DNA of 64,000 bases, taken from Microtetraspora fusca (GTDB lineage Bacteria; Actinomycetota; Actinomycetes; Streptosporangiales; Streptosporangiaceae). Shown here piece after piece: positions 15,833 to 35,434 of the stretch. The number at the start of each line of letters is the position of its first letter. Position 1 is the first letter of the stretch. Location of the stretch: the NCBI RefSeq assembly GCF_001570365.1, contig NZ_BBYK01000057.1:74776-138775 (forward strand), read 5' to 3'. The position numbers were made by a program, and so were the translations under genes. The notes beneath the pieces are model-generated. The model worked only from the letters and a program-made list of their open reading frames with translations. It was not told where the DNA came from and ran no database searches.

Positions 15833-16175
15833 CGGTGACCGGAGGTCGCCGGGGCCCGCTTCGGTGTGGCCCCCGCACGCTCCGAGCCCCGAACCGGTTT
15901 ATCCGGTCACCGCACCAGGAGATGTTCCCCGGATCTCCGCCGATGTGCCGCGTCGTCCCGGCGACGGCGCGGCCGAAGGGGGCGGAGTCCGCGCGGCCGT
16001 AAGCGTGCCCGCAGGAAAACGCCGGTCCGCAACAGCCCTGTCTCATTTCCCGGCAGCCATTGATTTTCCGGACACGATCCAGGAGCGTCCCCCGAAAAGC
16101 GCAGGGGCGCGGCCTGGCAGCGGGCCGTGCCCGCGACCCCCACCCGTAGGAGCCACACGAGCCATAGGAGATCCA

Positions 16176-17177
16176 ATGCAGGTCCATGACCTGTCCGGGG
16201 GAGACGACGTCCTCGCCCGAATAGAGAGGGTCGCCCACGCCGCCCTCCGGCGGTACGACGTCTCCCCTGACGCCGGCGTGACGCTCCTCAACGTCTCGGA
16301 GAACGCCACCTTCCTGGTGGACGACTCCGGCTCCCGCACGGTTCTGCGCGTCCACCGGCTCGGCTACCACTCGCCGGAGGCGATCGCCTCCGAGCTCGAC
16401 TGGCTGGCCGCGCTGCGCGCCGACGCGGGGATACGGACGCCCACGGTGGTGCCCGCCCGCGACGGCTCGCGGGTCGTCACGGTGGACGATCCCGGAGCCC
16501 AACCGCGTCGCTGCGTGATGTTCGAGTACCTGCCCGGGACGGAGCCGGCCGAGGACCGGCTGGTCGAGTCCTTCGAACCCCTCGGGGCGATCACGGCCCG
16601 GATGCACCGGCACGCCCGGGGCTGGGCGCGGCCCGCAGTTTTCACCCGCTTCCACTGGGACACCGACGCGGCGTTCGGCCCGGAGCCGCGCTGGGGCCGG
16701 TGGCAGGACGGCGTGGGCGTCGATCGCGAGGTCCACGAGGTGCTCTCCCGGCTGGAGAAGGAGTTGTGCGACCGGCTGGCGCGATTCGGCAGGGGACCGG
16801 AGCGCTACGGCCTGATCCACGCGGACCTGCGGCTGGCGAACCTGCTGGTCGACGCCGCGGACGGGACGAGCGTCATCGACTTCGACGACTGCGGCCTCGG
16901 TTGGTACCTGTACGACCTCGGCGCGGCGGTCAGCTTCATCGAGCACTACCCCCAGGTCCCCGAGATGATCGACTCCTGGGTCCGGGGCTACCGGAGCGTC
17001 CTCGACCTGCCGACGGCGGACGAGGACGAGATCTGGACGTTCATCATGCTCCGCCGCCTGCTCCTCGTGGCCTGGATCGGCTCCCACTCGGCCGCCGACG
17101 TCGCGGTGGAACTGGGCGCCGGATACACCCACGGCAGCTGCGAGCTGGCCGAGCGGTACCTCAGCGGATCACTCTGA
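16176..17177 (+). CDS. APH-fold kinase of the BMC locus (probable 1-amino-2-propanol kinase)
   Basis: A 333-residue phosphotransferase of the aminoglycoside/choline kinase fold. The catalytic loop is [13 protein letters not shown] (His215, Asp217, Asn222) and the metal-binding segment is VIDFDDCG (from Asp235). The homologous kinase of the Mycobacterium smegmatis aminoacetone microcompartment phosphorylates (S)-1-amino-2-propanol, producing the substrate for the PLP phospho-lyase; its place in this operon supports the same role. ATG 16176 is preceded by AGGAG at a good distance; the frame is open further upstream but that part lacks family similarity. It probably acts in the cytosol since no encapsulation helix is visible. 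Confidence 0.8.
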
Positions 17178-18928: not shown

Positions 18929-19966
18929 GTGGACGCCGCCGACCCTGCCGCCGTAAGCCGGATTCCTGAGGCGCGTACCGAGGGGAGCGCCGACGAACCC
19001 CACGGGCAGGGGCCGCTGACCCGGGTCAGGGTCGCGAGCGCGCCGGTCAACTTCGGCGTGTACACGGCGGAGGGCGCGCCGATCGCCGCCGACGACATGC
19101 TGGCGATCACGCGTGCCGCCGGATACGACGGGACGGACTCCGGCCCCATCGGCTATCTCGGCACCGGGGCCGAGCTGGCCGATCGGCTCGCCCGGCACGG
19201 CCTCGGCCTGGCCGGCGGCTGGGTGGACCTCCGGTACGGCGACGCCCGCGGCTTCGCCGAGGACCTGGCCGCGCTGGAGGCGGCCCTGGCCGTGTTCGCC
19301 GGCGTCTCGGTGGACGACCCCGGGTTCGCACCACGGCCGACGCTCGCCTGCCCGCCGAACCCGGCGCGGTTCGCCCGGCCCGGCGCGCCGGTCGATCGGG
19401 AACTCCGGCTCGCCCCGGACGAGTGGCCGGGATTCGCCGCGCGGGTGCGCGAGGCCGCCGCGCGGTGCCGCGACCGGGGCCTCGAACCCGTCTTCCACCC
19501 CCACCTCGGCACCGACGTGGAGACCGAGGAGGAGGTCGAGCGGCTGCTCGACCTCACCGGCGTGTCCCTCTGCCTCGACACCGGGCACCTGTGGCTCGCG
19601 GGCGGCGACCCGGTCGCCGCGGTCGGACGCTGGGCCGATCGGATCCGGCAGGTCCACGTCAAGGACGCCTCCCGCGACACGCTCGCCCGTGTCCGCGCCG
19701 CGGGCGGCGACCTGGGGGAGGCCGTCCGCCGGGGCGTCTTCCCGCCGCTCGGCGCGGGCGACCTCGACGTCGGGGCCGTGCTACGCGCGCTGGAGCGGGC
19801 CGGTTACGAGGGGTGGGTGGTCGTCGAGCAGGACGTCCCGGCCACCGGGCGGGATCCGGAGATCGTGGCCGCCGACCAGGTGGCCAACCGGGAGTGGTTG
19901 GCCCGGGCGGGACTGGTCGGCGGCCACGCGCCTACCGCTTCACCGGTGCCGCGAGGGCATGGGTGA
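18929..19966 (+). CDS. sugar phosphate isomerase/epimerase, TIM barrel (EryC/IolE-like)
   Basis: A 345-residue xylose-isomerase-like TIM barrel of the AP endonuclease 2 family. VASAPVNFGVY, GTDSGPIGYLG, VFHPHLGTDVET, CLDTGHLWLAGGDP and VHVKDASRD supply the His, Asp and Glu residues of the metal site. In erythritol catabolism EryC, of this family, epimerises erythrulose 1-phosphate; neighbouring eryA-, eryB-, eryH- and eryI-type genes support that role over inosose dehydratase. GTG 18929 gives about 30 poorly conserved N-terminal residues. The gene runs convergent to the aldolase fusion and overlaps its 3' end by 35 bp. Confidence 0.65.
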   Translation: MDAADPAAVSRIPEARTEGSADEPHGQGPLTRVRVASAPVNFGVYTAEGAPIAADDMLAITRAAGYDGTDSGPIGYLGTGAELADRLARHGLGLAGGWVDLRYGDARGFAEDLAALEAALAVFAGVSVDDPGFAPRPTLACPPNPARFARPGAPVDRELRLAPDEWPGFAARVREAAARCRDRGLEPVFHPHLGTDVETEEEVERLLDLTGVSLCLDTGHLWLAGGDPVAAVGRWADRIRQVHVKDASRDTLARVRAAGGDLGEAVRRGVFPPLGAGDLDVGAVLRALERAGYEGWVVVEQDVPATGRDPEIVAADQVANREWLARAGLVGGHAPTASPVPRGHG

Positions 19967-21683
19967 CGGAGGCGAGTTCGTGCCAGCGGGCGGACAGGAC
20001 GTCCGCCGCGCCGGGGACCAGGGCGGAGCCGGAGTCGAGCAGGTCCGCCCACAGCGACCGGCCGACGACGAAGCCGCTCGCGCCGGAGGCGCACGCGACG
20101 GCCACCTGGCGGACGACCGCCCCGAAGTCCTGCCCGCCGGACAGGATCGTCCACGGGAGCGATCCCGCCGCGGTGTTCAGGTCGTCGCAGGCCGCGCGCG
20201 CGGCGGCGTGCCCGGCGACGGCGTCCACCCCGGCGGGGAAGGCGAGCTTGAGGAAGTCGGGCGCGCGGCGCGCCACCTCCGCCACGACGTCGAGCTGACG
20301 GCGGCGCAGCGACTCGGCCGGCTCCTCCCGGTCGCGCGGCATCACCAGGACCTCGGCCATGACGGCGAGGCCCACCGCGTGGAAGGCCGCGATCACCCGT
20401 TCGAGCAGCGCGAACCGGTCGGCCGACCCGGCGTCGTCCAGGTCCTCCACCCACATGAGCTTGATCGCGTCCGCTCCGGCCGCCGCCACGGTCGCGGCGT
20501 CCCTCCCGTCCGCGAGCAGGCGCTCCGCGGGCACGGGCGCGGTGGGCGCGGTCTGCCGCTCCAGCCCGACGATCAGGCCGGACGGCGTGACGACGTCGCG
20601 GGACAGGCAGGCGGGCGCGCCGTACTCGACGTCGACGAGCACCGACGACGGAAGGCCGCGCAGCGCGGCGACGATGTCCGCCTTGGGGCGGGCCAGACCC
20701 GCCGCGTCCGGGACCGGCGCGACCGGCCAGGCGTCGGGGCCGTGGTCGACGGCGAGTGACAGCATCCGGCCGGACGGGTCGAGGACCCGCTGTACGGCGA
20801 GGCGGCGCCGCCCGGCGTCCGGCAGCCCGGGGACGCGCGGCGCGACGGGGGCGCGGCGCGGGCCGACCGACGGCGTGCCGTACGGCTGGTCCGCGCTCCA
20901 GCGGCGCTCGGGGCGGGCGGAGAGCGCGCGGGCGGCCGCCGCGCACAGGCCGAGGAACCCGTCCGGGTCCCAGGCCGCCCGGCCGACGAAGAGGCCGTCC
21001 ACCTCGGCGCTGCGGGCCAGCTCGTCCACGTTGCCGGGGTTGACGCTGCCGCCGTAGAGGATCACCGGGTCGGCCTGGCCGAGATCCTTCAGCACCGCGC
21101 GCACCGCCGCGTGGACCGGCTCGACCTCGGGCAGCGTCGCCGCCCGCGAGCCCTCGCCGATCGCCCAGACCGGCTCGTACGCCACCAGGACCCGGTCACG
21201 CTCCTCCGGGCGGACCCGGGCGAAGGCGGCGCGGACCTGCCCGGTCACGTGCTCGAGCGCCCGGCCCTCGTCGCGGATCACCTGGCTTTCGCCGACGCAC
21301 AGCACGACCCGCATGCCGTGCTCCAGGGCCGCGGCCACCTTGGCCGCGACCAGGTCGTCGGTCTCGTGGTGGTCGCGGCGGCGCTCGGCGTGGCCGATCT
21401 CGACCAGCGCGGCGCCCGTCTCCGCGATCATCGCGGCGCTCACGTCGCCGGTGTGCGCGCCGTCGGGCCAGGGCGAGGTGTCCTGCGCGCCGACCAGGAC
21501 CGGCGAGCCGCGCAGCGCCCCGGCGACCCGGTTCAGGTGCGGGTACGGCGGGATCACGAAGAGCCGCAGCGGCCCGTGGTGGCCCGGCCATCCCGCGGCG
21601 AGGGCGGCGGCGAACCGCTCGGCCTCCGCCACGGACTTGGTCATCTTCCAGCTCGTGCCGATCCAGAACTCTCTGCCGGACAT
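19932..21683 (-). CDS. fusion of triosephosphate-isomerase-like (EryH-like) domain with LacD-type class I aldolase
   Basis: A 583-residue two-domain protein. Residues 1-250 are a TIM homolog: TSWKMTK (Lys13), VEIGHAERR (His), VAYEPVWAIG (Glu) and ILYGGSVNPGN (phosphate loop) keep every catalytic residue, and TSWKM instead of NWKMN is the form in L-erythrulose-1-phosphate isomerases (EryH). Residues about 275-583 match LacD-type aldolases, with ADAIKLMWVED and the probable Schiff-base Lys in DFLKLAFPAG. ATG 21683 is chosen for the upstream GAGGAAGAG and EryH-like start; in-frame GTG 21707 and ATG 21701 overlap the kinase stop. The fusion suggests isomerised and cleaved C4 or longer ketose phosphates are channelled. 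It is the last gene of the eryB-eryA unit. Confidence 0.8.
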   Translation of the reverse strand: MSGREFWIGTSWKMTKSVAEAERFAAALAAGWPGHHGPLRLFVIPPYPHLNRVAGALRGSPVLVGAQDTSPWPDGAHTGDVSAAMIAETGAALVEIGHAERRRDHHETDDLVAAKVAAALEHGMRVVLCVGESQVIRDEGRALEHVTGQVRAAFARVRPEERDRVLVAYEPVWAIGEGSRAATLPEVEPVHAAVRAVLKDLGQADPVILYGGSVNPGNVDELARSAEVDGLFVGRAAWDPDGFLGLCAAAARALSARPERRWSADQPYGTPSVGPRRAPVAPRVPGLPDAGRRRLAVQRVLDPSGRMLSLAVDHGPDAWPVAPVPDAAGLARPKADIVAALRGLPSSVLVDVEYGAPACLSRDVVTPSGLIVGLERQTAPTAPVPAERLLADGRDAATVAAAGADAIKLMWVEDLDDAGSADRFALLERVIAAFHAVGLAVMAEVLVMPRDREEPAESLRRRQLDVVAEVARRAPDFLKLAFPAGVDAVAGHAAARAACDDLNTAAGSLPWTILSGGQDFGAVVRQVAVACASGASGFVVGRSLWADLLDSGSALVPGAADVLSARWHELASVTHALAAPVKR

Positions 21684-21697
21684 GCCTGTTCTCTTCC

Positions 21698-23203
21698 TCA
21701 TCCCCACGTTGTCCTCGCGCCGTCCACGATCAACCGGAACCGTTCGTACGCGTCGTCCATCCGCCGCCGGCCCGCTTCCTCGGGCTCGTATGTCGAAAGG
21801 TCACGCACGGTGGCCGCGACCGCCTCGGGCAGGTCGGCGTACACGCCGGCGCCGACGCCCGCGACCATGGCCGCGCCCAGCGCGCCGACCTCCCGGGCCG
21901 ACGTCGTGGTCACCGGCAGTCCGAGCCCGTCGGCGAACATCTGCAGCCAGGTCGCGCTGCGGGTCGCCCCGCCGCTGATCCGGGCCGTGTCCACGGTGAA
22001 GTGCGACCGCAGCGCGTCGGCGTGCCAGCGGTGGTTGTGCACCACGCCCTCGTACAGCGCGCGCACCAGGTGGCCGCGGGTGTGCCAGCCGCGCAGGCCG
22101 ACGAATCCGGCGCTGGCCGCCGCTCCCTCGGGCGAACCGTACAGGAAGGGCAGGTAGGTGACCTCGGACGGGCCGTCGAGGACGGCGTCCACCTCGTGCG
22201 ACAGCCGGGTGAAGACCTCGTCCGCCTGCCCGGCCTCGCGCAGCTCGGCCCCGCACAGCGACTGGACGAACCATTCGAGGTTCGTCGCCGAGGCGGGGGA
22301 GAGCGCCATGTTCAGCCAGCGGCCCGGCTCGACGAAGCTGCGGCAGTACCACGACCGGCTGGGCGCGGGCGCGTCGCTGACCACCTGGTTGATGCTGTAG
22401 GACCCGGCGACCACCGACAGCGTGCCCGGCCGGTGGACCCCGGTGGCGAGCGCGCACGCGTCCACGTCGTGCAGGCCCGACACCACCGGCGTCCCCGCCC
22501 GCAGGCCGGTGCGGCGGGCGGCCTCGGTGGTCACCGCGCCGGCCACCTCGTGGCTGTTCACGATCGGCGGCAGCAGGTGCCGCCACCGGCCCAGGCCGTA
22601 CGCGTCCACGACGGCGTCGGACCAGGTCTGGGTGTGCGGGTCGGTGAACGACTGGCTGGCCTCGGTGGGGTCGGTGCTCACCGCGCCGGTGAGCCACGCC
22701 TTCAGCAGGTCCTTGCAGCCGACGACGGCGGCGGTGCGCGCGACGACGTCGGGCTCGTGCTCGGCGAGCCAGGCGAGGACGGTGGCCGGGCTGGGCGCCC
22801 ACGGCCGCTGCCCGCTGGCGGCGAAGGCGCGTTCGGCGGTGCCGTCCCGCTCCCAGCGGTCGAGCAGCGGCTGGGCCCTGCTGTCCAGCGAAAGCACGCC
22901 GGGCCGGGTCGGGACGCCGTCCGCGTCGACGAGGTAGAGGCCGTCGCCGTGCCCGGTCAGCCCGACGGCGACGATCTCCTCGGGCGGGACCCGCGTGGCG
23001 ATCTCGCCGAGCACGGTGTCGAACGCGGAGCGCAGGGCGGTGAGGTCCCGCTCGACGTGGCGCGGGGCGGGGGTCTCGGCGCGCAGCCGGGCCGAGGCGC
23101 GCGCGACCTCGGCGCCGGACCGGTCGAACACGACGGCCTTCAGGACGGTGGTGCCGGCGTCGATCCCCAGCAGGAGAGGGGATCCCGGGCGGTGGCCGGA
23201 CAC
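21698..23203 (-). CDS. eryA: FGGY-family carbohydrate kinase, probable erythritol kinase
   Basis: A 501-residue FGGY kinase: LLGIDAGTTVLKAVVFD is the N-terminal phosphate loop, VAVGLTGHGDGLYLVD and STDPTEASQSF resemble erythritol kinase segments, and ISGGATRSATWLQMFADGLG is the C-terminal FGGY signature. It should phosphorylate a tetritol with ATP; the adjacent EryB-type dehydrogenase and EryH-like isomerase favour erythritol to erythritol phosphate, though L-xylulose or another polyol kinase role is possible. The GTG start lies 3 bp after the dehydrogenase stop, and its TGA overlaps an ATG of the fusion gene. Confidence 0.7.
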   Translation of the reverse strand: MSGHRPGSPLLLGIDAGTTVLKAVVFDRSGAEVARASARLRAETPAPRHVERDLTALRSAFDTVLGEIATRVPPEEIVAVGLTGHGDGLYLVDADGVPTRPGVLSLDSRAQPLLDRWERDGTAERAFAASGQRPWAPSPATVLAWLAEHEPDVVARTAAVVGCKDLLKAWLTGAVSTDPTEASQSFTDPHTQTWSDAVVDAYGLGRWRHLLPPIVNSHEVAGAVTTEAARRTGLRAGTPVVSGLHDVDACALATGVHRPGTLSVVAGSYSINQVVSDAPAPSRSWYCRSFVEPGRWLNMALSPASATNLEWFVQSLCGAELREAGQADEVFTRLSHEVDAVLDGPSEVTYLPFLYGSPEGAAASAGFVGLRGWHTRGHLVRALYEGVVHNHRWHADALRSHFTVDTARISGGATRSATWLQMFADGLGLPVTTTSAREVGALGAAMVAGVGAGVYADLPEAVAATVRDLSTYEPEEAGRRRMDDAYERFRLIVDGARTTWG

Positions 23204-23206
23204 GTG

Positions 23207-24964
23207 TCAGCCGATCTCGCTGAGGCGGTGGATGTAGGTGCGGTATCCGGCGATGTCCCGCTCGACCCGCTCCGCGTCCCAGCCGCAGTGCTCGGCCAGT
23301 ACGGCGCCGATCCGCTCCAGCGCCGGGACGCCCAGGTCGGGTTCGAGGCCGATCATGGTACGGCGGGCGACGACGTCGGCGATCGTGGTGGCGAACTCCT
23401 CGCGCACCGCGAAGACGACCTGCGCCGCGATGGTGCCGGTCGCCTCGTCCACGACCTCGGCCAGGCGCGGGTCGGCGGCGGCGAGCGCGGCGACGTCGGC
23501 CGCCCGCGTGCCGTACACGCGGACCAGGCGCGCGGCGCTCGCGGCGGGCAGGCCGGACGACGCGGTGAACTCGCGCGCGAACGCGTCGAGGTCGAGAGCG
23601 CGGGCCCCGGGCAGCCGCATCCGGGCGGTGGCGCTGCGCCGCCGCGTCCAGCGGCGCGACAGGCGCGGCGGGCGGGGGCTCCGGCGGGCCATGATCTCGT
23701 CCACGGCCTCCTCGGCGAGCCCGCGGAACGTGGTGAGCTTGCCGCCGATCACGGAGATCAGGCCGATGACGTCGGGGGCGTGGTCCACGAGCAGGTGCCG
23801 CCGCGAGATGTCGCCCTCCGGCTTGTCCGCGTCGTACGGCAGGGGCCGCACCCCGCAGTAGCTGTAGCGGACGTCGGCGGGGGTGAGCCGGGCGGAGGGA
23901 ATGATCCGGTTGGTCTCCTCCAGGATGTAGGCGAGCTCCTCCTCGTCGCTGCGCGCGCTGTCGAGGTCGCCGTCGAAGCGCAGGTCGGTGCTGCCGATGA
24001 GATAGCGGCCGAGCCACGGGATGACCATCAGCGGCCGGCCGTCGCGGTGCGCCTCATAGTAGAACGCCTGGTCGGGCGCGCCGGGGAACGGGTCGACGAC
24101 GTAGTGGCTGCCCTTGGTGCCGCCCATGCGGCGGACGCCCGCGCGCTCGCCGAGCGCGGCGGCCAGCGTCTGGTCCACCCAGGGGCCGGAGGCGTTCACG
24201 ACGACGGGGGCGGCGATCTCGTGGCGCTCGCCGGTCAGCCGGTCGGTGAAGCCGACCCCGCGCACCCGGTCGCCGGAGAGCAGGATCTCGTCCACCTGGG
24301 CGTAGGTCAGTACGGTGGCGCCCTCGGCGGTCGCGGCGATGGCGGTCTCCAGGACCATGCGCTCGGCGAACTCGACCTGTGCGTCGTAGTAGGCGGCGCC
24401 ACCCTGCAGGCCTTCCGGGCTGAGGCCGGGGCACAGCCGCAGCAGTTGCTCCTTGGAGTAGACCCGGTGGTGGTCCACCGTCTTGTCGAAGCTGAGCACG
24501 TCGTAGGCGACCATGCCGAGCCGCAGGATGGCCTTGCCATGCGCGTTGCCCCGGTAGAACGGGAGGACGAACCGCAGCGGCTTGACCAGGTGCGGGGCGG
24601 CCTGCAGCAGCCACTCGCGCTCGCGCAGGGACTCCCGGACCAGCCGGACGTCCTTCTGCTCCAGGTACTTGAGCCCGCCGTGTACCATCCGGCTCGACCA
24701 GGACGAGGTGCCGGAGCCGACGTCCCCCTTGTCCAGCAGGGCCACCCGCAGGCCGCGCGCCGCCGCGTCCCAGGCGATGCCGACGCCGTTGACACCCGCG
24801 CCGATGACGACGAGGTCGACGCCGCGGGCGAGCCGGCCGAGCGCCTCGGCGCGGCGCCGCCGCAGCGCCTCCGGCGTGCCTGCGGTGTCCCGGGTCAGCC
24901 CGTCCGGTGCGGACGGGTACGCGGACGAGGGCGCTGCGGACGTGGTCGGGTCCGGCTGGTTCAT
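23207..24964 (-). CDS. eryB: FAD-dependent glycerol-3-phosphate dehydrogenase family protein, probable erythritol phosphate dehydrogenase
   Basis: A 585-residue FAD enzyme of the GlpD class. VDLVVIGAGVNGVGIAWDAAARG is the FAD-binding Rossmann motif, followed by GTSSWSSRMVHGGLKYLEQ, which is diagnostic of GlpD-like proteins, and GVRPL and VIGGKLTTFR later. Next to an erythritol-type kinase it probably oxidises D-erythritol 1-phosphate to D-erythrulose 1-phosphate and passes electrons to quinone at the membrane. ATG 24964 has AAGGTGA 8 bp upstream; in-frame starts further 5' lack one. First gene of a three-gene minus-strand operon facing the ABC transporter operon. Plain glycerol-3-phosphate oxidation is the alternative. 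Confidence 0.7.
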   Translation of the reverse strand: MNQPDPTTSAAPSSAYPSAPDGLTRDTAGTPEALRRRRAEALGRLARGVDLVVIGAGVNGVGIAWDAAARGLRVALLDKGDVGSGTSSWSSRMVHGGLKYLEQKDVRLVRESLREREWLLQAAPHLVKPLRFVLPFYRGNAHGKAILRLGMVAYDVLSFDKTVDHHRVYSKEQLLRLCPGLSPEGLQGGAAYYDAQVEFAERMVLETAIAATAEGATVLTYAQVDEILLSGDRVRGVGFTDRLTGERHEIAAPVVVNASGPWVDQTLAAALGERAGVRRMGGTKGSHYVVDPFPGAPDQAFYYEAHRDGRPLMVIPWLGRYLIGSTDLRFDGDLDSARSDEEELAYILEETNRIIPSARLTPADVRYSYCGVRPLPYDADKPEGDISRRHLLVDHAPDVIGLISVIGGKLTTFRGLAEEAVDEIMARRSPRPPRLSRRWTRRRSATARMRLPGARALDLDAFAREFTASSGLPAASAARLVRVYGTRAADVAALAAADPRLAEVVDEATGTIAAQVVFAVREEFATTIADVVARRTMIGLEPDLGVPALERIGAVLAEHCGWDAERVERDIAGYRTYIHRLSEIG

Positions 24965-25108
24965 ATCTCGTGTCACCTTGGTCGGTCGGTTCGACATGGC
25001 CTTCGACATGGCCGGGGCCCCCGCGGAGCGGGGCTGCGGTCGTACGTCCGGCGGGGCCGCGCGGCGAGGGGCGCCCAGATGTCCGCGCCCCGCCTTCAGG
25101 ACGTTACA

Positions 25109-25167: not shown

Positions 25168-25196
25168 TTGTTACGGTGAAATTAACCATCTAACGT
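25168..25196 (+). promoter_or_regulatory. predicted promoter of the ABC transporter operon
   Basis: TTGTTA (25168-25173), a 17-nt spacer and TAACGT (25191-25196) match sigma-70 spacing. It places transcription start near 25203, which rules out GTG 25195 as translation start and supports GTG 25255. The operator-like boxes lie directly upstream. Confidence 0.5.
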
Positions 25197-25254
25197 GTCC
25201 CATCAAGCAGCGATGCTGTTAGATCTACGTCAACCTCGCCACATCGGAGTCAGC

Positions 25255-26757
25255 GTGAACGGTTCGCTCGAGTGCCGGGATCTCACGAAAAGCTTCGGAG
25301 GTCTCCCCATTCTGCGCGGCGTGAGCCTGCGGCTGGAGCCCGGCACGGTCACCGTGCTGGCCGGTGAGAACGGCGCGGGCAAGTCCACGCTCTTGAAGAT
25401 CATTTCCGGTCAGCTCCGCCCGGACACCGGAGAGGTCCTCTCCGGCGGCGAGCCGCTCGCCCCGGGCGACGTACACGCCGCGCGCGGGGCCGGCATCGGC
25501 ATCGTCCCGCAGGAGCTCGCGCCGATCCCCGACCTGTCCATCTACGAGAACCTTTTCGTGGGCAGGGAGAAGCGCACCAGGACCGGCCTGCTCGACCGGC
25601 GCGGCATGATCAAGGCCGCCCGCGAGATGCTCACCGTCTTCGGCATCGACCTCGACCCGCGCACCCCGATGCGCCGGCTGTCGGTCGGCATGACCCAGCT
25701 CGTCGAGATCGTCAAGAACACGTCGTGGGGCGCGCGGGTCGTGCTCCTCGACGAGCCCACCTCCGCGATCTCCGACCGCGAGGTCGACCGGCTCTTCACC
25801 CTGATCGACCAGCTCCGCGGGCGTGGCGTGGCCATCGTCTACACCACGCACAAGATGGCGGAGATCCAGGCGGTCGCCGACCGTGTCGTGGTCCTGCGCG
25901 ACGGCAAGCTCGTCGCCGACGAGCCGCTGTCGGCCCTCTCGGAGCACGACATCGTCCAGCACATGATCGGCAGGGAGCTGTCGGAGCTCTTCCCGGCCCG
26001 GCCGGAGCCCGGGGCGGAGGTCGCCCTCCGCGTGGCCGGCGTCCGGCGCGAGGGAGCACCGCCGGTGGACCTGGAGGTGCGCGCGGGGGAGATCGTCGGG
26101 CTCGCCGGCCTGATCGGCGCCGGCCGCACCGAGCTGCTCGAGACCCTCTTCGGCGTACGCGGCCGCACCGACGGCGAGATCGAGGTCGCCGGACGGCGGC
26201 TGCGGCCGGGCCGGGTGACCGACGCGATCGCCGCCGGCATGGCGCTCGTACCCGAGGACCGCAAGGGCGCGGGGCTGGTCCTGTCCATGGACGTGCTCGA
26301 CAACGGCTCGCTGCCCCACCTCAAGGCGTTCTCCGTCGCCGGATGGCTCCGCCCCAAGGCGCGGACCGCGGCCGTCGGCGAGTGGGGACGGACACTGGGG
26401 CTGCGCAGCCGGGGGCTCTCCCAGGAGGTGCAGACCCTCTCGGGCGGCAACCAGCAGAAGGTGGTCCTCGGCCGCTGGCTTTCCGGCGACGTCAAGGTCC
26501 TCCTGCTGGACGAGCCCACCCGCGGCGTCGACATCGGCGCGCGGAGCGAGATCTACCGCGCGATCACCCGGCTCGCCGAGTCCGGCCTCGCCGTGCTGAT
26601 GGCGTCATCCGACATGGCCGAGGTCATCGGGCTGTCCCACCGGCTCCTGGTCATGCGCGGCGGCGGGGTCGTCGCCGAGCTGGACCGCCGCGCCATGGAC
26701 GCGCCGGACGTGCAGGAACGGATCTTCCGGCACGCCGCGGGCCTCAACGTCGCTTAA
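25255..26757 (+). CDS. sugar ABC transporter ATPase with two nucleotide-binding domains
   Basis: A 500-residue RbsA/XylG-type ATPase. Domain 1 has Walker A GENGAGKST near residue 40, LSVGMTQLVEI and VVLLDEPTSAIS; domain 2 has the degenerate GLIGAGRTELLE loop, signature LSGGNQQKVVLGRW and VLLLDEPTRGVDIG. It powers monosaccharide or polyol import with the permease and binding protein that follow. GTG 25255 (GGAG 5 bp upstream) is preferred over GTG 25195, which falls in the -10 box. In rhizobial and Brucella erythritol loci the same three-part system is EryEFG. Confidence 0.88.
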   Translation: MNGSLECRDLTKSFGGLPILRGVSLRLEPGTVTVLAGENGAGKSTLLKIISGQLRPDTGEVLSGGEPLAPGDVHAARGAGIGIVPQELAPIPDLSIYENLFVGREKRTRTGLLDRRGMIKAAREMLTVFGIDLDPRTPMRRLSVGMTQLVEIVKNTSWGARVVLLDEPTSAISDREVDRLFTLIDQLRGRGVAIVYTTHKMAEIQAVADRVVVLRDGKLVADEPLSALSEHDIVQHMIGRELSELFPARPEPGAEVALRVAGVRREGAPPVDLEVRAGEIVGLAGLIGAGRTELLETLFGVRGRTDGEIEVAGRRLRPGRVTDAIAAGMALVPEDRKGAGLVLSMDVLDNGSLPHLKAFSVAGWLRPKARTAAVGEWGRTLGLRSRGLSQEVQTLSGGNQQKVVLGRWLSGDVKVLLLDEPTRGVDIGARSEIYRAITRLAESGLAVLMASSDMAEVIGLSHRLLVMRGGGVVAELDRRAMDAPDVQERIFRHAAGLNVA

Positions 26758-26782: not shown

Positions 26783-27811
26783 GTGAACGTAGCCGCGCCC
26801 AGCACCGCTGGGAAGAATTCGCCCGCACAGCCGCCGGAACGGCGCGGTCCCGCCCTCGGCCGCGCCGGCGAGGCCGTACGGGAGTGGGCGATCCGCAATC
26901 CCATGGTCCTCGTCATGGTCCTGGTGATCCTCTACTTCCTGTACATGAGCGACCGCTTCGGCACGGTGGGCAACCTCCAGACCATCGCGATCGCCGCGGC
27001 GCCGTTCGCGCTCATCGCCCTGGGCCAGACGCTGGTGATCCTCACCGGCGGCATCGACCTGAGCGTGGGCAGCGTCATCGCCGCCAGCGCCATGACGGCG
27101 GCCCTGGTCGTGAAGGACCACCCCGAGCGGATGTGGCTGGCCGTCCTCGCCGCCGTCCTGGTCGGCGTGGCCGTCGGCGCGGTCAGCGGTTTCGCCGTCT
27201 CCCGGCTCGGGGTGCCGCCGTTCGTGGCCACCCTGGGCATGATGACGGTCGCCTCGGGGCTCGCGTACGTGCTCGGCAACGGCGCCCCCATCAACGGCCT
27301 GCCGCCGGGCTACTCGGCGATCGCCAACACCAAGGTCTTCGGCATCGACCTGCCGGTCATCGTCATGATCCTCGGCTTCGCGATCATGATCGTGCTGATG
27401 TCGCGCACGACCTACGGCCTGCGCGTCTACGCGGTGGGCGGCAACCCGCTCGCGTCCCGGATCGCCGGCCTCAACGTGAACCGGACCCTGTTCAGCGTCT
27501 ACGTGATCAGCGGCGGACTCGCCGGGCTCTCGGGAGTGATCCTCTCGTCCCGGGTCATCTCCGCGTTCCCCAGCCTCGGCGCGGGCTACGAGCTCGACGC
27601 CATCGCCGCCGTCGTCATCGGCGGGGCCAGCCTCATGGGCGGCCGCGGCACCGTCTGGGGCACCATCCTCGGCCTGTTCCTGATCCAGACCCTGAACAAC
27701 GGCCTGGACCTGCTCATCGTCCCGTCCTACTGGCAGAAGGTGATCAAGGGCGTGCTCATCATCGCCGCCGTCGCCCTCGACGTCTGGGTCGTCCGGCGCC
27801 GATCGCGCTGA
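26783..27811 (+). CDS. sugar ABC transporter permease (RbsC/EryF-like)
   Basis: A 342-residue inner-membrane permease with about 8-10 hydrophobic helices. ALGQTLVILTGGIDLSVGSV is the highly conserved motif of ribose-type permeases, and GINRTLF-like AGLNVNRTLFSVYVISGGLAGLSG and AAVVIGGASLMGGRGTVWGT follow. It likely forms a homodimeric channel with the ATPase upstream. GTG 26783 follows AAGGAA. The 25-bp distance to the ATPase gene indicates co-transcription. Confidence 0.9.
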   Translation: MNVAAPSTAGKNSPAQPPERRGPALGRAGEAVREWAIRNPMVLVMVLVILYFLYMSDRFGTVGNLQTIAIAAAPFALIALGQTLVILTGGIDLSVGSVIAASAMTAALVVKDHPERMWLAVLAAVLVGVAVGAVSGFAVSRLGVPPFVATLGMMTVASGLAYVLGNGAPINGLPPGYSAIANTKVFGIDLPVIVMILGFAIMIVLMSRTTYGLRVYAVGGNPLASRIAGLNVNRTLFSVYVISGGLAGLSGVILSSRVISAFPSLGAGYELDAIAAVVIGGASLMGGRGTVWGTILGLFLIQTLNNGLDLLIVPSYWQKVIKGVLIIAAVALDVWVVRRRSR

Positions 27812-27907: not shown

Positions 27908-28939
27908 ATGTTCAAGAAGATCCGGGCCGCCGCGGCGATCAGCGCGGTGCTGGCCCTCGGCGCCGCCGGCTGCGGCGCCGGCGACTCCGGCTCCGGGGGC
28001 GGGAGCGGCAAGGTCAGGATCGGCGTCACCGTCTACGACATGACCTCCTTCATCACCCAGGGCAAGGAGGGCATGGAGGCCTACGCCAAGGCCCGCGACG
28101 TGAACCTCACCTGGCTGAACGCCGGAGGGGACGTCAACACCCAGGCCAGCCAGATGGAGCAGCTCATCAACGCCGGCGTGGACGCGATCGTGATCGCCCC
28201 GGTGCAGGCCGACTCCCTCAGCCCGCAGATCGCCCAGGCCACGGCGAAGAACATCCCCGTCATCGCGGTCAACACGTCGCTGAAGGACACCGGCGCGCTG
28301 GCCGCCACCGTGCTCCCCGACGACGTCGCGGCGGGCGCGCAGGAGATGCAGCAGATGGCCGACAAGCTCGGCGGCAAGGGCAACATCGTCATCCTGCAGG
28401 GCCCGCTCGCCTCCTCGCCGGAGCTCGACCGGACCAAGGGCATCATGCAGACCCTGGCGAAGTACCCCGACATCAAGGTGCTCGCCAAGGACACCGCCAA
28501 CTGGAACCGCGACGAGGCCGTCAACAAGACCAAGAACTGGCTGTCCAGCTTCGGCGACCAGCTCAACGGGATCGTGGCCGAGAACGACGACATGGCGCTG
28601 GGCGCCCTGCGCGCGCTCAAGGAGGCCGGCAAGTCCCTGCCCGTCGTCGGCATCGACGGCATCCAGGACGGCCTGCAGGCCGTCAAGAGCGGCGAGCTGA
28701 TCGGCTCCTCCCTCCAGCACGGCCGGGTCGAGATGGGCGCCGGTCTCGCGGTGGCCCTCCGGGTGGTCAAGAAGGAGAGCTTCGAGAAGACCAACACGTA
28801 CGTGATGCCGGCCATCACGCCGGAGAACGTCGACAAGCTCCTCGACCACGTGGTCACGGGCAAGGACGCCTTCCTGGCCAAGCTTCCCGATCTTGTTGAC
28901 AAGAACCTGCAAAGCGGCAACATCGCGAACGAGGAATGA
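27908..28939 (+). CDS. sugar-binding lipoprotein of the ABC transporter
   Basis: A 343-residue periplasmic-binding-protein-like lipoprotein (Peripla_BP_4 class). The signal peptide [22 protein letters not shown] ends in lipobox LGAAGC, so the mature protein is tethered outside the membrane by Cys22. [20 protein letters not shown] and [25 protein letters not shown] are ribose-binding-protein-like. It captures the substrate, predicted to be a tetritol from the surrounding genes. AAGGGAAG precedes the ATG. A hairpin follows it. Confidence 0.88.
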
Positions 28940-29034: not shown

Positions 29035-29853
29035 GTGGGGAACAACACGGAGTCCCTGGACGGCACGGGTTACGGACGGCCCAGCCGGCAGCAGGCGAGG
29101 TGGGACCGGATCGCGGAGTACGTGATGCAGCACGGCTCCGTCCGCATCGAGGAGCTCAGCGAGCAGCTCGGCGTCAGCGTCATGACGATCCATCGCGACC
29201 TGAGCGAGCTGGAGAGCAAGGGGCTGCTGCGCAAGACGCGCGGCCAGGCCACCGCGGTCGCGACCAGCCTGGTCGAGGCGAGCACGGTGTACCGGGGGTC
29301 GCGCAACCGCGACAGCAAGCGCGCCCTGTCGGCCGCCGCGCTCGAGATGATCGAGCCCGGTGAGGCGGTCGTGCTCGACGACTCGACCACGATCGTGCCG
29401 CTCGCGGAGCGGCTCGTCGAGCGCGCTCCCCTGACGGTGATCACGCCGTCGTTGCACCTGATCAAGATGATGACCCGGCAGCCCGGAATCACGCTGCTGG
29501 CGCTGGGCGGCCAGTACTACGAGTGGGCCGACGCGTTCCTGGGCCGCGTCACCGTGGCGGCGGCCAGGGAGCTGCGCGCCGACGTGTGCGTCATGTCCAC
29601 CGCCGCGATCGTCGGAGACGTCTGCTACCACCAGATGGAGGAGATCGTCACGGTGAAGCAGGCGCTCCTGGAGTGCGCCGAGCGCAAGATCCTGCTGGCC
29701 GACCATACGAAGTTCTCCCGGCGCGCCCTGCACGCGCTCATGCCGCTGGCCAGCTTCGACGTCGTCATCGTGGACGAGCAGACCCCGGCCGCCGAGGTGG
29801 AGCGGCTCCGCGGCAAGGGGATCAACGTGGTCGTCGCGCCGCCCGTTCCCTAG
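29035..29853 (+). CDS. DeoR-family transcriptional regulator
   Basis: A 272-residue sugar-phosphate-responsive regulator. The N-terminal helix-turn-helix (RIEELSEQLGVSVMTIHRDLSELESKG) is the DeoR signature; the C-terminal domain has the ribose-5-phosphate-isomerase-like fold of DeoR sensors, with VVLDDSTTIVPLAERL, ITPSLHLIKMM, ALGGQYYEWADAFLG and ERKILLADHTKFSRRAL. It is placed between the transporter and kinase genes and is the probable repressor of the island, with an erythrulose or tetritol phosphate as inducer. GTG 29035 has GAGG close by. Confidence 0.85.
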   Translation: MGNNTESLDGTGYGRPSRQQARWDRIAEYVMQHGSVRIEELSEQLGVSVMTIHRDLSELESKGLLRKTRGQATAVATSLVEASTVYRGSRNRDSKRALSAAALEMIEPGEAVVLDDSTTIVPLAERLVERAPLTVITPSLHLIKMMTRQPGITLLALGGQYYEWADAFLGRVTVAAARELRADVCVMSTAAIVGDVCYHQMEEIVTVKQALLECAERKILLADHTKFSRRALHALMPLASFDVVIVDEQTPAAEVERLRGKGINVVVAPPVP

Positions 29854-29910: not shown

Positions 29911-31635
29911 ATGACGCGCCTGTACAACGACCCCCGCGCGTTCGCCGACGAGATGCTCGCGGGCTTCGCCGACGCCCACTCCCGCTATGTGACGCGGGTC
30001 CCCGGAGGCGTGGTGCGGGCCGCGGAGACGCCGGCGGGCAAGGTCGCGGTGGTCGTCGGCGGCGGCTCCGGGCACTACCCCGCGTTCTGCGGGGTGGTGG
30101 GCGCCGGCTTCGCCGACGGCGCGGTGGTGGGGCACGTCTTCACCTCGCCCTCCACCCAGGACGCGGTCTCGGTCGGCCGGGCGGCCGCCTCCGACGCCGG
30201 GCTCCTGTTCATCACCGGCAACTACGCCGGCGACGTCATGAACTTCACCCTCGCCCGCGACCGGCTGGCGGCCGAGGGGGTGGACGCGCGGGTGCTGTTC
30301 GTCACCGACGACATCGCCAGCGCGCCCGCCGACGAGGCCGGGAAGCGGCGCGGCATCGCCGGCGACTTCGTCGTCTTCAAGGTCGCGGGCGCCGCGGCCG
30401 AGGAGGGCTACTCCCTCGACGAGGTCGAGCGCGTCGCGCGGCACGCCAACGACCGCACCCGCACGCTCGGCGTCGCCTTCGGCGGCTGCACCCTGCCCGG
30501 CGATCCGGCGCCGCTGTTCTCGGTCCCCGCCGGGCGGATGGGCGTCGGCCTGGGCATCCACGGCGAGCCGGGCATCTCGGAGGATGAGCTGCCGAGCGCG
30601 CGCGACCTCGCCCGGCGGCTGGTGGACGGCGTGCTCGCCGAGGTCCCGGCCGACGGCGAGCGACGCCTCGGCGTGATCCTCAACGGCCTCGGCACGACCA
30701 AGCACGAGGAACTGTTCATCGTCTGGCGTTCGGTGGCGGAGCTGCTGGCCGAGCGCGGGTTCACCGTGGTCGAGCCCGAGGTCGGCGAGCTGGTGACCAG
30801 TCTCGACATGGCGGGCTGCTCGCTCACCGTCGTCCCGCTCGACGACGAGCTCGAACGGCTGTGGCGGGCTCCGGCCGACACGCCCGCGTACCGGAAGGGC
30901 GCGGTGGCCGCCGCGCCGACCGGTGTCCGCCGCCGTGCCGAGCAGGCGTCCGGCGCGCGGCAGGAGGCCGAGAGGACCGGGTCGGCCGCGTCGCGTGCCT
31001 GCGCGGCGACGGCGGTCCGCGCGCTCGGCGCGATGAGCGAGCGGCTGCGGGAGGCCGAGGCCGAGCTGGGCCGGATCGACGCCGTCGCGGGCGACGGCGA
31101 CCACGGCCGGGGGATGGTCAACGGCGTGAGCGCGGCGCTGGAGGGCGCCACCATGGCCGCGGGCCGGGGCGCGGGAGCCGGGTCGGTCCTCGCCGCCGCG
31201 GGCGACGCCTGGGCCGCGAAGGCCGGGGGCACGTCCGGCGTCCTGTGGGGGGCGATCCTGCGCGCGATCGGCGACGAGCTGGGCGACCAGGGCGACGAGG
31301 TCCCGGCCGCCCGGGGGGTGGCGGCGGTCCGCGCCGGGGTGGCCGAGCTGCGCCGCCTCGGCAAGGTCGAGGTCGGCGACAAGACGATGCTCGACGCGCT
31401 CGCGCCCTTCGCCGAGGAACTTGAGGCGGGCGTCGCGTCCGGCCGGACGCTGGCGGACGCCTGGGCCGAGGCCGCCGGGGCCGCCGGGCGCGCGGCCGAG
31501 GCGACGGCGGCGCTGCGACCCAGGGTCGGCCGGGCGCGGCCGCTCGCCGAGAAGAGCGTCGGGACGCCCGACGCCGGGGCCCTGTCGATGGCGATGTGCC
31601 TCGACGTCGTGGCCCGCGAACTCGCCGCCGAGTGA
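29911..31635 (+). CDS. DhaK-DhaL fused kinase, probable erythrulose kinase
   Basis: A 574-residue ATP-dependent dihydroxyacetone-kinase-type protein. The DhaK half (1-330) contains [17 protein letters not shown] and GLGIHGEPG, whose His normally holds the ketone substrate covalently. The DhaL half (about 360-574) contains [13 protein letters not shown], the Mg-binding Asp triad, and [10 protein letters not shown]. In M. smegmatis homologs of this architecture phosphorylate erythrulose in D-threitol and L-threitol breakdown, which fits the adjacent RpiB-type isomerase and SDR. ATG 29911 sits 4 bp after GGAGGAT; GTG 29908 is too close. Dihydroxyacetone itself is an alternative substrate. Confidence 0.78.
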
Positions 31636-31685: not shown

Positions 31686-32204
31686 ATGACCGACAAACTG
31701 CGCATCGTCGTGGGCTGCGACGATGCCGGGCTCGACTACAAGGAGGTCCTCAAGGCCGACCTGCGGGCGGACGACCGCGTCAGCGAGGTCATCGACGTCG
31801 GGGTCGGCGCCGGGCAGCACACGGCGTACCCGCACGTGGCGGTCGCCGCCGCGCGGCTCGTCGCCGCGGGCGAGGCCGACCGCGCCCTGCTGGTCTGCGG
31901 CACCGGGCTCGGCGTGGCGATCAGCGCCAACAAGGTGCCCGGCATCCGGGCCGTCACCGCGCACGACAGCTTCTCCGTCGAGCGCGCCGTGCTCAGCAAC
32001 AACGCGCAGGTCCTGTGCTTCGGCCAGCGGGTCATCGGCCTGGAGCTCGCCCGGCGGCTGGCCAGGGAGTGGCTGGGCTACCGGTTCGACGACAGGTCGC
32101 CCTCGGCCTCCAAGGTCGAGGCGCTCAGCTCGTACGAGGCGGGTGGGGCCGCGGCCGAGGACGAGGCGCTCGCGGTCTCCTGCTCCGACCCCCGGGCCGA
32201 GTAG
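31686..32204 (+). CDS. RpiB/LacAB-type sugar phosphate isomerase (EryI/DerI-like)
   Basis: A 172-residue aldose-ketose isomerase. [48 protein letters not shown] (catalytic Cys in CGTGLG) and [15 protein letters not shown] are RpiB family motifs. In tetritol catabolism this family converts D-erythrulose 4-phosphate to D-erythrose 4-phosphate, feeding the pentose phosphate pathway. GAGGTGGGG precedes ATG 31686. It is 50 bp after the kinase gene. Ribose-5-phosphate isomerase is less likely given the neighbours. Confidence 0.8.
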
Positions 32205-32236: not shown

Positions 32237-32995
32237 ATGAGCACGCTCGACCTTTCCTTCGGCCTGGACGGCAAGGTGGCCCTGGTCACCGGCGGAGCCT
32301 CCGGGATCGGCTCGGCCGTCGCCGACGCATTCGCCGCCAAGGGCGCGCACGTCGCGGTGCTGGACCGCGACGCGGACGCGGCCGAGGCCAAGGCCGCCGC
32401 CCTCGGCCCGGACAGTTCGGCGACGGCCTGCGATGTGTCCGACGCCGCCGCCGTCGAGAGCGCGGTCCGCGCCGTGATCGACCGCCACGGCCGGGTGGAC
32501 GTCCTGGTCAACAGCGCCGGCGTGGCCATCCTCGCCCCCGCCGAGGAGCTGACCGAGTCCATGTGGGACACGACGATGAACGTCAACCTCAAGGGGACGT
32601 TCCTGGTGTCCCAGGCGGTGGGCCGGCACATGCTGGAGCGGGGCCGCGGAAAGATCATCAACCTCGCCTCGCAGGCCGCCACCGTCGCGCTCGACGCCCA
32701 CGCCGCGTACTGCGCCTCGAAGTTCGGCGTCGTCGGGCTGTCCAAGGTCCTCGCCTCGGAGTGGGCCGGGCGCGGCGTGACGGTCAACACCATCTCGCCG
32801 ACCGTCGTGCTCACCGACCTCGGGCGCAAGGCGTGGGCGGGGGAGAAGGGCGACGCGCTCAAGGCGCTGATCCCCACCGGGCGCTTCGCCTACCCGGAGG
32901 AGATCGCGGCCACCGCCGTGTTCCTCGCCTCCGACGCGTCCGACATGATCAACGGCGCCGACATCCTCGTGGACGGCGGCTACACGATCCGCTGA
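32237..32995 (+). CDS. SDR dehydrogenase, probable threitol/polyol dehydrogenase
   Basis: A 252-residue classical SDR: VTGGASGIGSAVADAFAAKG binds NAD, VNSAGVAILAPAE is the NAG-type motif, and the catalytic Ser-Tyr-Lys lie in NLASQAATVALDAHAAYCASKFG. It probably oxidises a tetritol to erythrulose for the upstream kinase. AAGGAGA precedes ATG 32237, 32 bp after the isomerase gene. A strong terminator follows, marking the operon end. Confidence 0.75.
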   Translation: MSTLDLSFGLDGKVALVTGGASGIGSAVADAFAAKGAHVAVLDRDADAAEAKAAALGPDSSATACDVSDAAAVESAVRAVIDRHGRVDVLVNSAGVAILAPAEELTESMWDTTMNVNLKGTFLVSQAVGRHMLERGRGKIINLASQAATVALDAHAAYCASKFGVVGLSKVLASEWAGRGVTVNTISPTVVLTDLGRKAWAGEKGDALKALIPTGRFAYPEEIAATAVFLASDASDMINGADILVDGGYTIR

Positions 32996-34210: not shown

Positions 34211-35434
34211 ATGGTGCTCGAACTCGACGGCAGGGAAGTTGAGATCACCAACCCGGACCGCGTGGTCTTCCCGCGTACGGGACACACGAAGGGCGACCTG
34301 ATCGCCTACTACCAGGCGGTGGCCGAGGGCGCCCTGCGCGGTGTCGCGGACCGCCCGGTCATTCTCAAGCGCTACGTCGACAGCGTCGAGGACGCGCCCT
34401 TCTTTCAGAAGCGCGCCCCGGCGAAGCGGCCCGGGTGGGTCGAGGTGGCCCGGTTCGCCTACCCCTCCGGGCGCACGGCGGACGAGGTCGTCGTCCGCGA
34501 CCTCGCGCACCTGCTGTGGACGGTGAACCTCGGCTGCGTCGACCTCAACCCCCATCCCGTACGCGCCGCGGACCTGGAGCACCCCGACGAGCTGCGGATC
34601 GACCTCGACCCGGTGCCCGGCGTCGGATGGGAGCAGATCGTCCGGGTCGCCCTGCACGCCCGGGACGTGCTGGAGGAGCACGGCCTGACCGCGTGGCCCA
34701 AGACGTCCGGGTCGCGCGGCTTCCACATCTACGCGCGGATCGAGGCCCGGTGGACGTTCCGCGAGGTGCGCCGGGCGGCCGAGGCGGTCGCCCGCGAGGT
34801 CGAGCGGCGCGCCCCCGAGATCGCCACCAGCCACTGGTGGAAGGAGGAGCGCGAGGGCGTCTTCGTGGACTACAACCAGAACGCCAGGGACCGGACCGTC
34901 GCCTCGGCGTACTCGGTGCGGCCGACCGGCCGCGTCTCCACGCCGCTCGCCTGGGGCGAGGTGGAGCGGTGCCGCCCGGACGCGTTCACGATCGGCACCG
35001 TGCCGGGACGGCTGGCCGAGAACGGCGACCCGTGGGCGCCGATGGACGGGACCGCCGGAACGCTGGACGCGCTGCTCGACCTCGCCGAGAAGCAGGGCCC
35101 CCGTCCGAAAGCACCGAAAGCCGCAAAAGCCGATAAATCCGAAAAAGCGGAGAAAACCGGTGAAAGTGGAGGTCGGCGCCGTTCCGTCAAGCCGCTGATC
35201 GAGATCGCCCGGGCCGAGACCGAGGACGAGGCCAGGGCCGGGTTCGAGCGGTGGAAGGCGCGCCACCCGGACGTCGCCCGGCTGCTGCGCCCGGCCGACG
35301 TGCTGGTCGACTCCATGCGGGGCCGCAGTTCGACCTGGACCCGGATCCGGGTCAACCTCCAGCACGTCCCCGAGGCGGAGCGGCCGCCCCAGGAGCCGCT
35401 CGAGGTGGACTACGACCCGTGGCGCGGCCGGTAG
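34211..35434 (+). CDS. stand-alone LigD-type polymerase/primase domain (NHEJ)
   Basis: A 407-residue archaeo-eukaryotic-primase-type polymerase as found in bacterial LigD, which fills ends and adds ribonucleotides during non-homologous end joining. ITNPDRVVFPRTGHTKGDLI, LRIDLDPVPG (catalytic Asp pair), KTSGSRGFHIYARI and VDYNQNARDRTVASAYSVRP are the defining motifs. The ligase and nuclease domains are absent, and no Ku or ligase gene is in the window. A Lys-rich linker (residues about 300-320) encoded by unusually AT-rich AAA codons joins the catalytic part to a C-terminal 75-residue helical tail. It overlaps the convergent GMC gene by 25 bp. Confidence 0.85.
   Translation: MVLELDGREVEITNPDRVVFPRTGHTKGDLIAYYQAVAEGALRGVADRPVILKRYVDSVEDAPFFQKRAPAKRPGWVEVARFAYPSGRTADEVVVRDLAHLLWTVNLGCVDLNPHPVRAADLEHPDELRIDLDPVPGVGWEQIVRVALHARDVLEEHGLTAWPKTSGSRGFHIYARIEARWTFREVRRAAEAVAREVERRAPEIATSHWWKEEREGVFVDYNQNARDRTVASAYSVRPTGRVSTPLAWGEVERCRPDAFTIGTVPGRLAENGDPWAPMDGTAGTLDALLDLAEKQGPRPKAPKAAKADKSEKAEKTGESGGRRRSVKPLIEIARAETEDEARAGFERWKARHPDVARLLRPADVLVDSMRGRSSTWTRIRVNLQHVPEAERPPQEPLEVDYDPWRGR

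Follow-up and report, generated by a model that had tools for sequence, protein, structure and literature searches.

The stretch of DNA analysed here, referred to below as the window, covers 64,000 nucleotides of Microtetraspora fusca (contig NZ_BBYK01000057.1), and its minus strand carries a gene (19932..21683) in which a domain of the triosephosphate-isomerase (TIM) family is joined to a class I aldolase domain within a single chain of 583 residues. The open reading frame (ORF) begins with the ATG at 21683, preceded by the purine-rich run GAGGAAGAG; an alternative GTG start at 21707 (ORF 19932-21707) would add eight residues, resulting in a protein of 591 residues. The TIM-family domain, presumably of the LerI/EryH type, spans residues 7-249 (20937..21665, minus strand; Pfam PF00121, E = 1.7e-68) and contains K13, H98, and E170. 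A linker rich in proline and arginine (20754..20936, minus strand; approximately residues 250-310) leads to the DeoC/LacD-family class I aldolase domain of residues 311-546 (20046..20753, minus strand), which contains K408, E444, K479, and R542 and matches PF01791 with E = 1.3e-11 and 45 bits, above the gathering cut-off of 23.8. An earlier note, made from the sequence without database searches, had described a TIM-like domain fused to an aldolase with the catalytic residues of both retained, and the two Pfam domains in one uninterrupted ORF, together with K13, H98, and E170 in one and K479 with K408 and E444 in the other, bear out this description.

The fusion is almost certainly real. We found no internal stop codon or frameshift between the TIM and aldolase domains in ORF 19932-21683, and the gene is also intact in the separate assemblies of M. 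malaysiensis (L006, 95% identity) and M. niveoalba (L007, 92% identity). The ratios of nonsynonymous to synonymous substitution rates (dN/dS) among the three species are 0.15-0.25 for the isomerase domain and 0.16-0.23 for the aldolase domain, compared with 0.28-0.86 for the linker (residues 253-300). Purifying selection keeps both domains while the linker drifts under relaxed selection, and the AlphaFold2 (AF2) model assigns the linker a predicted local distance difference test (pLDDT) score of about 30. Because the fusion is intact in three assemblies and the dN/dS values are well under 1, a frameshift, an assembly artefact, and a chance ORF were ruled out. The two findings that the earlier note had named as fatal to its proposal, an interruption between the domains and the loss of one active site, were both looked for; the three assemblies hold no such interruption, and the residues of both active sites are kept.

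The isomerase domain is very probably of the LerI/EryH type, as judged from its sequence relationships. Its best PDB sequence match is an L-erythrulose-1-phosphate isomerase (11ef, 5.5e-58), followed by a triosephosphate isomerase (TPI, 3.6e-50), and the best fold match found with Foldseek is the L-erythrulose-1-phosphate isomerase of Brucella melitensis, with a template modelling (TM) score of 0.96 normalised to the target; the AF2 model of this half has pLDDT values mostly above 90. These matches agree with the erythrulose-phosphate-type isomerase that the earlier note had proposed. K13, H98, and E170 are invariant in an alignment of 39 sequences of the domain. The domain bears the motif GTSWKM rather than GNWKM, and in loop 6 it shares the LerI group's additional residue instead of having GT-G. 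In a quick maximum-likelihood tree, it falls among actinobacterial LerI-type genes adjoining ATP-binding cassette (ABC) transporter, DAK, and RpiB genes (clade support 94-95), apart from canonical TPIs (support 100); the underlying search used WIGTSWKM as a single pattern, which biases the motif counts and, to a lesser degree, the tree. The features expected of a LerI/EryH member were all found, namely the catalytic Lys/His/Glu of TPI, the grouping in the tree, and an RpiB and a tetritol/tetrulose kinase in the locus. A canonical TPI lies on another contig of the genome, and no further TIM-family match besides it and the fusion was found in the genome. The tree, the motifs, and the canonical TPI elsewhere ruled out a duplicate of the glycolytic TPI. 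For the same reasons, it is highly improbable that the domain functions as an ordinary TPI that converts dihydroxyacetone phosphate (DHAP) released by the aldolase into glyceraldehyde 3-phosphate, even though this would make the two activities consecutive and the catalytic residues of TPI are all kept. Such a role would also leave the RpiB of the locus with no second LerI-type gene found in the genome to supply it. Separately, four loci (L160, L161, L178, and L179) carry a divergent TIM group with SLKM instead of WKM, where the start was readable, adjoining DAK and RpiB (70-74%), and this group is possibly another subfamily of tetrulose-phosphate isomerases.

The aldolase domain is more distant from characterised proteins. 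Its single sequence matched YihT best in the PDB (1.3e-13), followed by the DUF2090 protein 8tnf (3.3e-9) and LacD; with a profile built with the nearest stand-alone relatives, 8tnf came first (1.6e-57), with YihT and LacD next. K408, E444, K479, and R542 align with K124, E159, K193, and R253 of YihT, where Lys193 is the Schiff-base residue. Both the Schiff-base lysine (K479) and the catalytic Lys/Glu pair (K408, E444) are kept. The catalytic residues of LacD are Lys126 and Glu164 (PMC9007349), which we take to match K408 and E444. From these correspondences, the domain is probably a DHAP-type ketose-phosphate aldolase. The label "LacD-type" given by the earlier note holds at the level of the superfamily and fails for tagatose-bisphosphate aldolase, whose membership was ruled out at 21.7 bits against a cut-off of 432.2 for TIGR01232 and 81.7 against 184 for PRK12858, an NCBIfam subfamily. 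Membership among YihT sulfofructose-1-phosphate aldolases was likewise ruled out, as the domain occupies a separate branch in the tree and its first strand ends with D-H-G (D313-H314) instead of the D-Q-R found in YihT and many relatives. The following loop is also shortened. In class I fructose-bisphosphate aldolase (FBA), the corresponding loop contacts the far phosphate. This analogy and the missing arginine of D-Q-R weakly suggest a substrate that has no second anionic group. Elsewhere in the Streptosporangiaceae, we noticed two loci (L112, 8387-11086; L113, 8737-11826) with a YihT-like aldolase whose neighbours, named by eye, are a putative kinase of the PfkB type, an exporter resembling TauE, and an aldehyde dehydrogenase; both look like sulfoquinovose loci of the sulfoglycolytic Embden-Meyerhof-Parnas (sulfo-EMP) type.

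Upstream of the fusion on the minus strand are an FGGY-family polyol/ketose kinase (21698..23203), 14 nucleotides away, and a GlpD-like flavin-dependent (FAD) dehydrogenase (23207..25009), a candidate polyol-phosphate dehydrogenase 3 nucleotides before the kinase and 34% identical to a putative EryB, in the order GlpD, FGGY, fusion. On the plus strand, the 3' end of the convergent gene for an IolE-like protein of the xylose-isomerase superfamily (18929..19966) overlaps the fusion by 35 nucleotides. This gene adjoins the fusion in all three Microtetraspora species and possibly encodes an epimerase; its identification as EryC was ruled out because similarity to EryC is undetectable. Beyond the dehydrogenase, the plus strand carries an ATPase (25195..26757) and a permease (26783..27811) of a sugar ABC transporter, a sugar-binding protein (27908..28939), a DeoR-family regulator (29035..29853), a DhaK-DhaL kinase (29911..31635) that is a candidate of the LerK/DerK type, an RpiB-family isomerase (31686..32204) that is a DerI/EryI candidate, and a short-chain dehydrogenase/reductase (SDR; 32237..32995) of the GolD/DthD family, D-threitol dehydrogenase type (NF005309, 389.9 bits, cut-off 286). 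The DhaK-DhaL kinase is 55-57% identical to the DAKs, and the RpiB 61-78% identical to the RpiBs, of actinobacterial LerI loci. The whole set of genes reads as a locus for tetritol-type catabolism. Just past it lies a gene for a protein with a LigD-type primase-polymerase domain (window 34211-35434), and on the other side a gene for a phosphotransferase of the aminoglycoside-phosphotransferase (APH) fold, close to no named family (window 15864-17177), stands upstream of genes for an SDR and a GntR regulator, both outside the conserved locus.

Comparison with related loci separates this gene set into two parts. Six other Streptosporangiaceae share the transporter (binding protein 63-66%), with DAK (68-70%) and RpiB (73-80%) in five of them, the SDR (79%) in three, and a zinc dehydrogenase in most; neither TIM, this aldolase, FGGY, nor GlpD lies beside the transporter in these six loci. 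The D-threitol route of Mycobacterium smegmatis runs through DthD, DerK, and DerI. Taken together, these two observations suggest that the operon on the plus strand represents a conserved core of the tetritol type, to which GlpD, FGGY, and the fusion, with the IolE-like gene, were added in Microtetraspora. Two further genomes (G127 and G145, loci L109 and L110) combine the transporter (binding protein 61%), FGGY (51%), and GlpD (52-53%) with a stand-alone aldolase of the D-H type (approximately 31% identical), and no TIM, RpiB, or DAK was found within approximately 20 kb. To judge from this gene content, the aldolase is the only visible step following the kinase and the dehydrogenase there, which would place it directly after the ketose-phosphate step.

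The gene content of L109 and L110 also bears on a different proposal, in which the aldolase takes a longer ketose 1-phosphate from a second polyol, for instance splitting a pentulose 1-phosphate into DHAP and glycolaldehyde, and the domains are tethered so that two routes served by one transporter are co-expressed. The absence of the tetrulose isomerases there and the pocket of the DH type without the D-Q-R arginine are in line with such a substrate. So are three loci (L172 on contig C64 of the same genome, L174, and L175) that form a second type of FGGY-GlpD-aldolase operon, containing GntR, a sugar ABC transporter, a DeoC/LacD-family aldolase of 290-330 residues (LsrF-like by eye), a GlpD-like protein, and FGGY. 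We nevertheless consider a longer ketose unlikely, since C4 compounds are favoured both by the transporter, which is common to loci with DthD, DAK, and RpiB, and by FGGY kinases of 42-50% identity near TIM-RpiB in 12 of 78 LerI/EryH-type loci (L008-L085), a set dominated by related alphaproteobacteria, so that counts from it are not independent.

We tentatively favour, at somewhat less than even confidence, a bifunctional enzyme of the tetritol-type locus with both domains drawing on one ketose-1-phosphate pool. The FGGY kinase and the GlpD-like dehydrogenase would produce a ketose 1-phosphate. If this were erythrulose 1-phosphate, the isomerase domain would convert it into D-erythrulose 4-phosphate, and RpiB would then form erythrose 4-phosphate. 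The aldolase domain, as a Schiff-base enzyme of the DHAP type, might split the same ketose 1-phosphate into DHAP and an aldehyde, or catalyse the reverse; with erythrulose as the ketose, the aldehyde released or fixed would be formaldehyde. The fusion could thereby unite on a single chain the two fates that compete for one branch-point metabolite. The joined chain, its retained residues, the selection on it, the isomerase subfamily, and the gene context are observed; both substrates, the direction, and any channelling are inferred. The LerI-type clade, the match with 11ef, the DthD, RpiB, and DAK neighbours, the residues of the aldolase, the loci L109 and L110, and the gaps of 3 and 14 nucleotides are all consistent with a shared pool. 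The earlier note had regarded the two activities as non-consecutive in the erythritol route and had looked to a branch in which a ketose phosphate is cleaved or condensed, or to another substrate for the locus. The analysis supports such a branch; as both domains might represent alternative fates of one metabolite, the steps need not be consecutive and the difficulty disappears. Nor is an aldolase foreign to erythritol genes, as Brucella Fba illustrates.

Several points weigh against a shared pool. The aldolase domain is only approximately 30% identical to any relative and sits on a long branch in the tree, and its AlphaFold models have low confidence (pLDDT of 40 for the domain alone and below 50 over most of that half in AF2). 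YihT, the nearest aldolase that has been assayed, failed in vivo as an erythrulose-1-phosphate synthase (PMC10733421). Releasing formaldehyde would be metabolically unattractive. The substrate of the transporter is itself deduced, and a pentitol would suit the FGGY-GlpD-aldolase half equally well. Erythrulose 1-phosphate as the substrate of the aldolase is a doubtful assignment, and we also consider it improbable that in the fusion nature has joined an erythrulose-1-phosphate formaldehyde-lyase/synthase (EC 4.1.2.2) with LerI. Together with the adjacent RpiB, such an enzyme would connect formaldehyde and DHAP with erythrose 4-phosphate. One study presents the reaction of EC 4.1.2.2 solely as something that other aldolases do on the side (PMC10733421); with a LerI joined to a DHAP-type aldolase beside RpiB, the fusion presents itself directly as a candidate for an enzyme dedicated to it. 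If the substrate were another ketose phosphate, the fusion would still point to a second way out of polyol catabolism and give one LacD-superfamily branch a function.

Foremost among the mechanistic rivals is a condensation of erythrose 4-phosphate with DHAP into sedoheptulose 1,7-bisphosphate by the aldolase domain, whereby the fusion would tie early and late steps of one route. In Brucella, class II Fba feeds erythritol-derived erythrose 4-phosphate into sedoheptulose 1,7-bisphosphate (PMC11005471), and growth on erythritol needs Fba/bisphosphatase, via the condensation with DHAP, or transaldolase (PMC11005471, PMC11508834). A class II Fba-like gene is found within the fetched flanks of 21 of the 78 LerI/EryH-type loci, but in Brucella suis Fba is the sole FBA, so its nearness to the ery genes may be incidental. 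The fusion lacks the D-Q-R arginine that probably serves a second anionic group, two class II FBAs are already encoded elsewhere in the genome, and the aldolase occurs in L109 and L110 without adjacent isomerases, which makes us regard this condensation as quite unlikely.

The aldolase domain might alternatively have turned into a 3-epimerase replacing EryC, interconverting D- and L-erythrulose 1-phosphate via a Schiff base and passing the L-form to the isomerase, in which case the steps would be consecutive. Aldolase-like epimerases do exist, as exemplified by AraD compared with FucA. The alphaproteobacterial routes with FGGY and GlpD use EryC, found in 46 of the 78 LerI-type loci, yet no EryC match was detected in this genome or four relatives in a search without a positive-control genome, and the IolE-like neighbour is not EryC. 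However, the residues of the aldolase are all conserved with no sign of altered chemistry, and the IolE-like neighbour could itself be the epimerase. Together with the limit of the EryC search, this makes an epimerase improbable.

The fusion appears to be confined to a few species of soil actinobacteria. The search for the same fusion and its neighbours, which the earlier note had suggested, placed it in three Microtetraspora species at a tetritol-type locus, whereas 79 of the 81 LerI-type genes in the fetched loci encode single-domain proteins of 246-261 residues, the exceptions being L006 and L007. Beyond these species, no TIM fused to an aldolase of this type was found in 150 genomes of the family or in 395 of the class, the latter searched with the aldolase query. 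A scan of 84,980 species with patterns derived from the query gave no further fusion among the best 80 of 476 relatives kept, although a very divergent fusion could escape it. Plasmids contained no fusion and only stand-alone relatives at approximately 25-29% identity, and the search of viral contigs gave nothing. In two more genomes of the genus (G096 and G118), both the fusion and the sugar-binding protein of the locus are absent. We found no description of this pairing of isomerase and aldolase in the literature searched.

Among the known systems, LerI/EryH of Brucella melitensis (11ef) shares with the isomerase domain its clade and motifs, besides being its best sequence and fold match, and the DAK and RpiB partners, but the members found are single-domain proteins, whereas the fusion carries an attached aldolase. 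The Brucella-type erythritol pathway (EryABCHI) differs by its EryC, for which the control-free search in this genome and four relatives gave no match. YihT and LacD are, like the predicted aldolase domain, class I DHAP-type enzymes of the DeoC/LacD family, and K124, E159, K193, and R253 of YihT are kept in the fusion; it differs from them by the identity of only about 25-30%, the failed LacD cut-offs, D-H-G in place of D-Q-R, and the shorter first loop. The synthetic erythrulose monophosphate (EuMP) cycle combines a DHAP-dependent aldolase, serving as the erythrulose-1-phosphate synthase, with LerI and DerI (PMC10733421), as the fusion and RpiB would, so that a formaldehyde-lyase/synthase at this locus would be its natural counterpart; the cycle was, however, designed, is called new to nature, and uses separate enzymes, among which RhaD and FucA worked as synthases and YihT and FbaA did not (PMC10733421). 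IolC-DUF2090 of myo-inositol catabolism (PMC9007349) is an architectural parallel, in which a LacD-type aldolase domain is also fused to an enzyme of the same route, although there the partner is a kinase, which catalyses the step immediately preceding the aldolase, instead of an isomerase; a DUF2090 protein (8tnf) is likewise the top PDB match of the aldolase profile. The principle of a LacD-type aldolase fused to an enzyme of the same route is already known, and its pairing with a LerI-type isomerase seems, from the literature searched, to be the new element.

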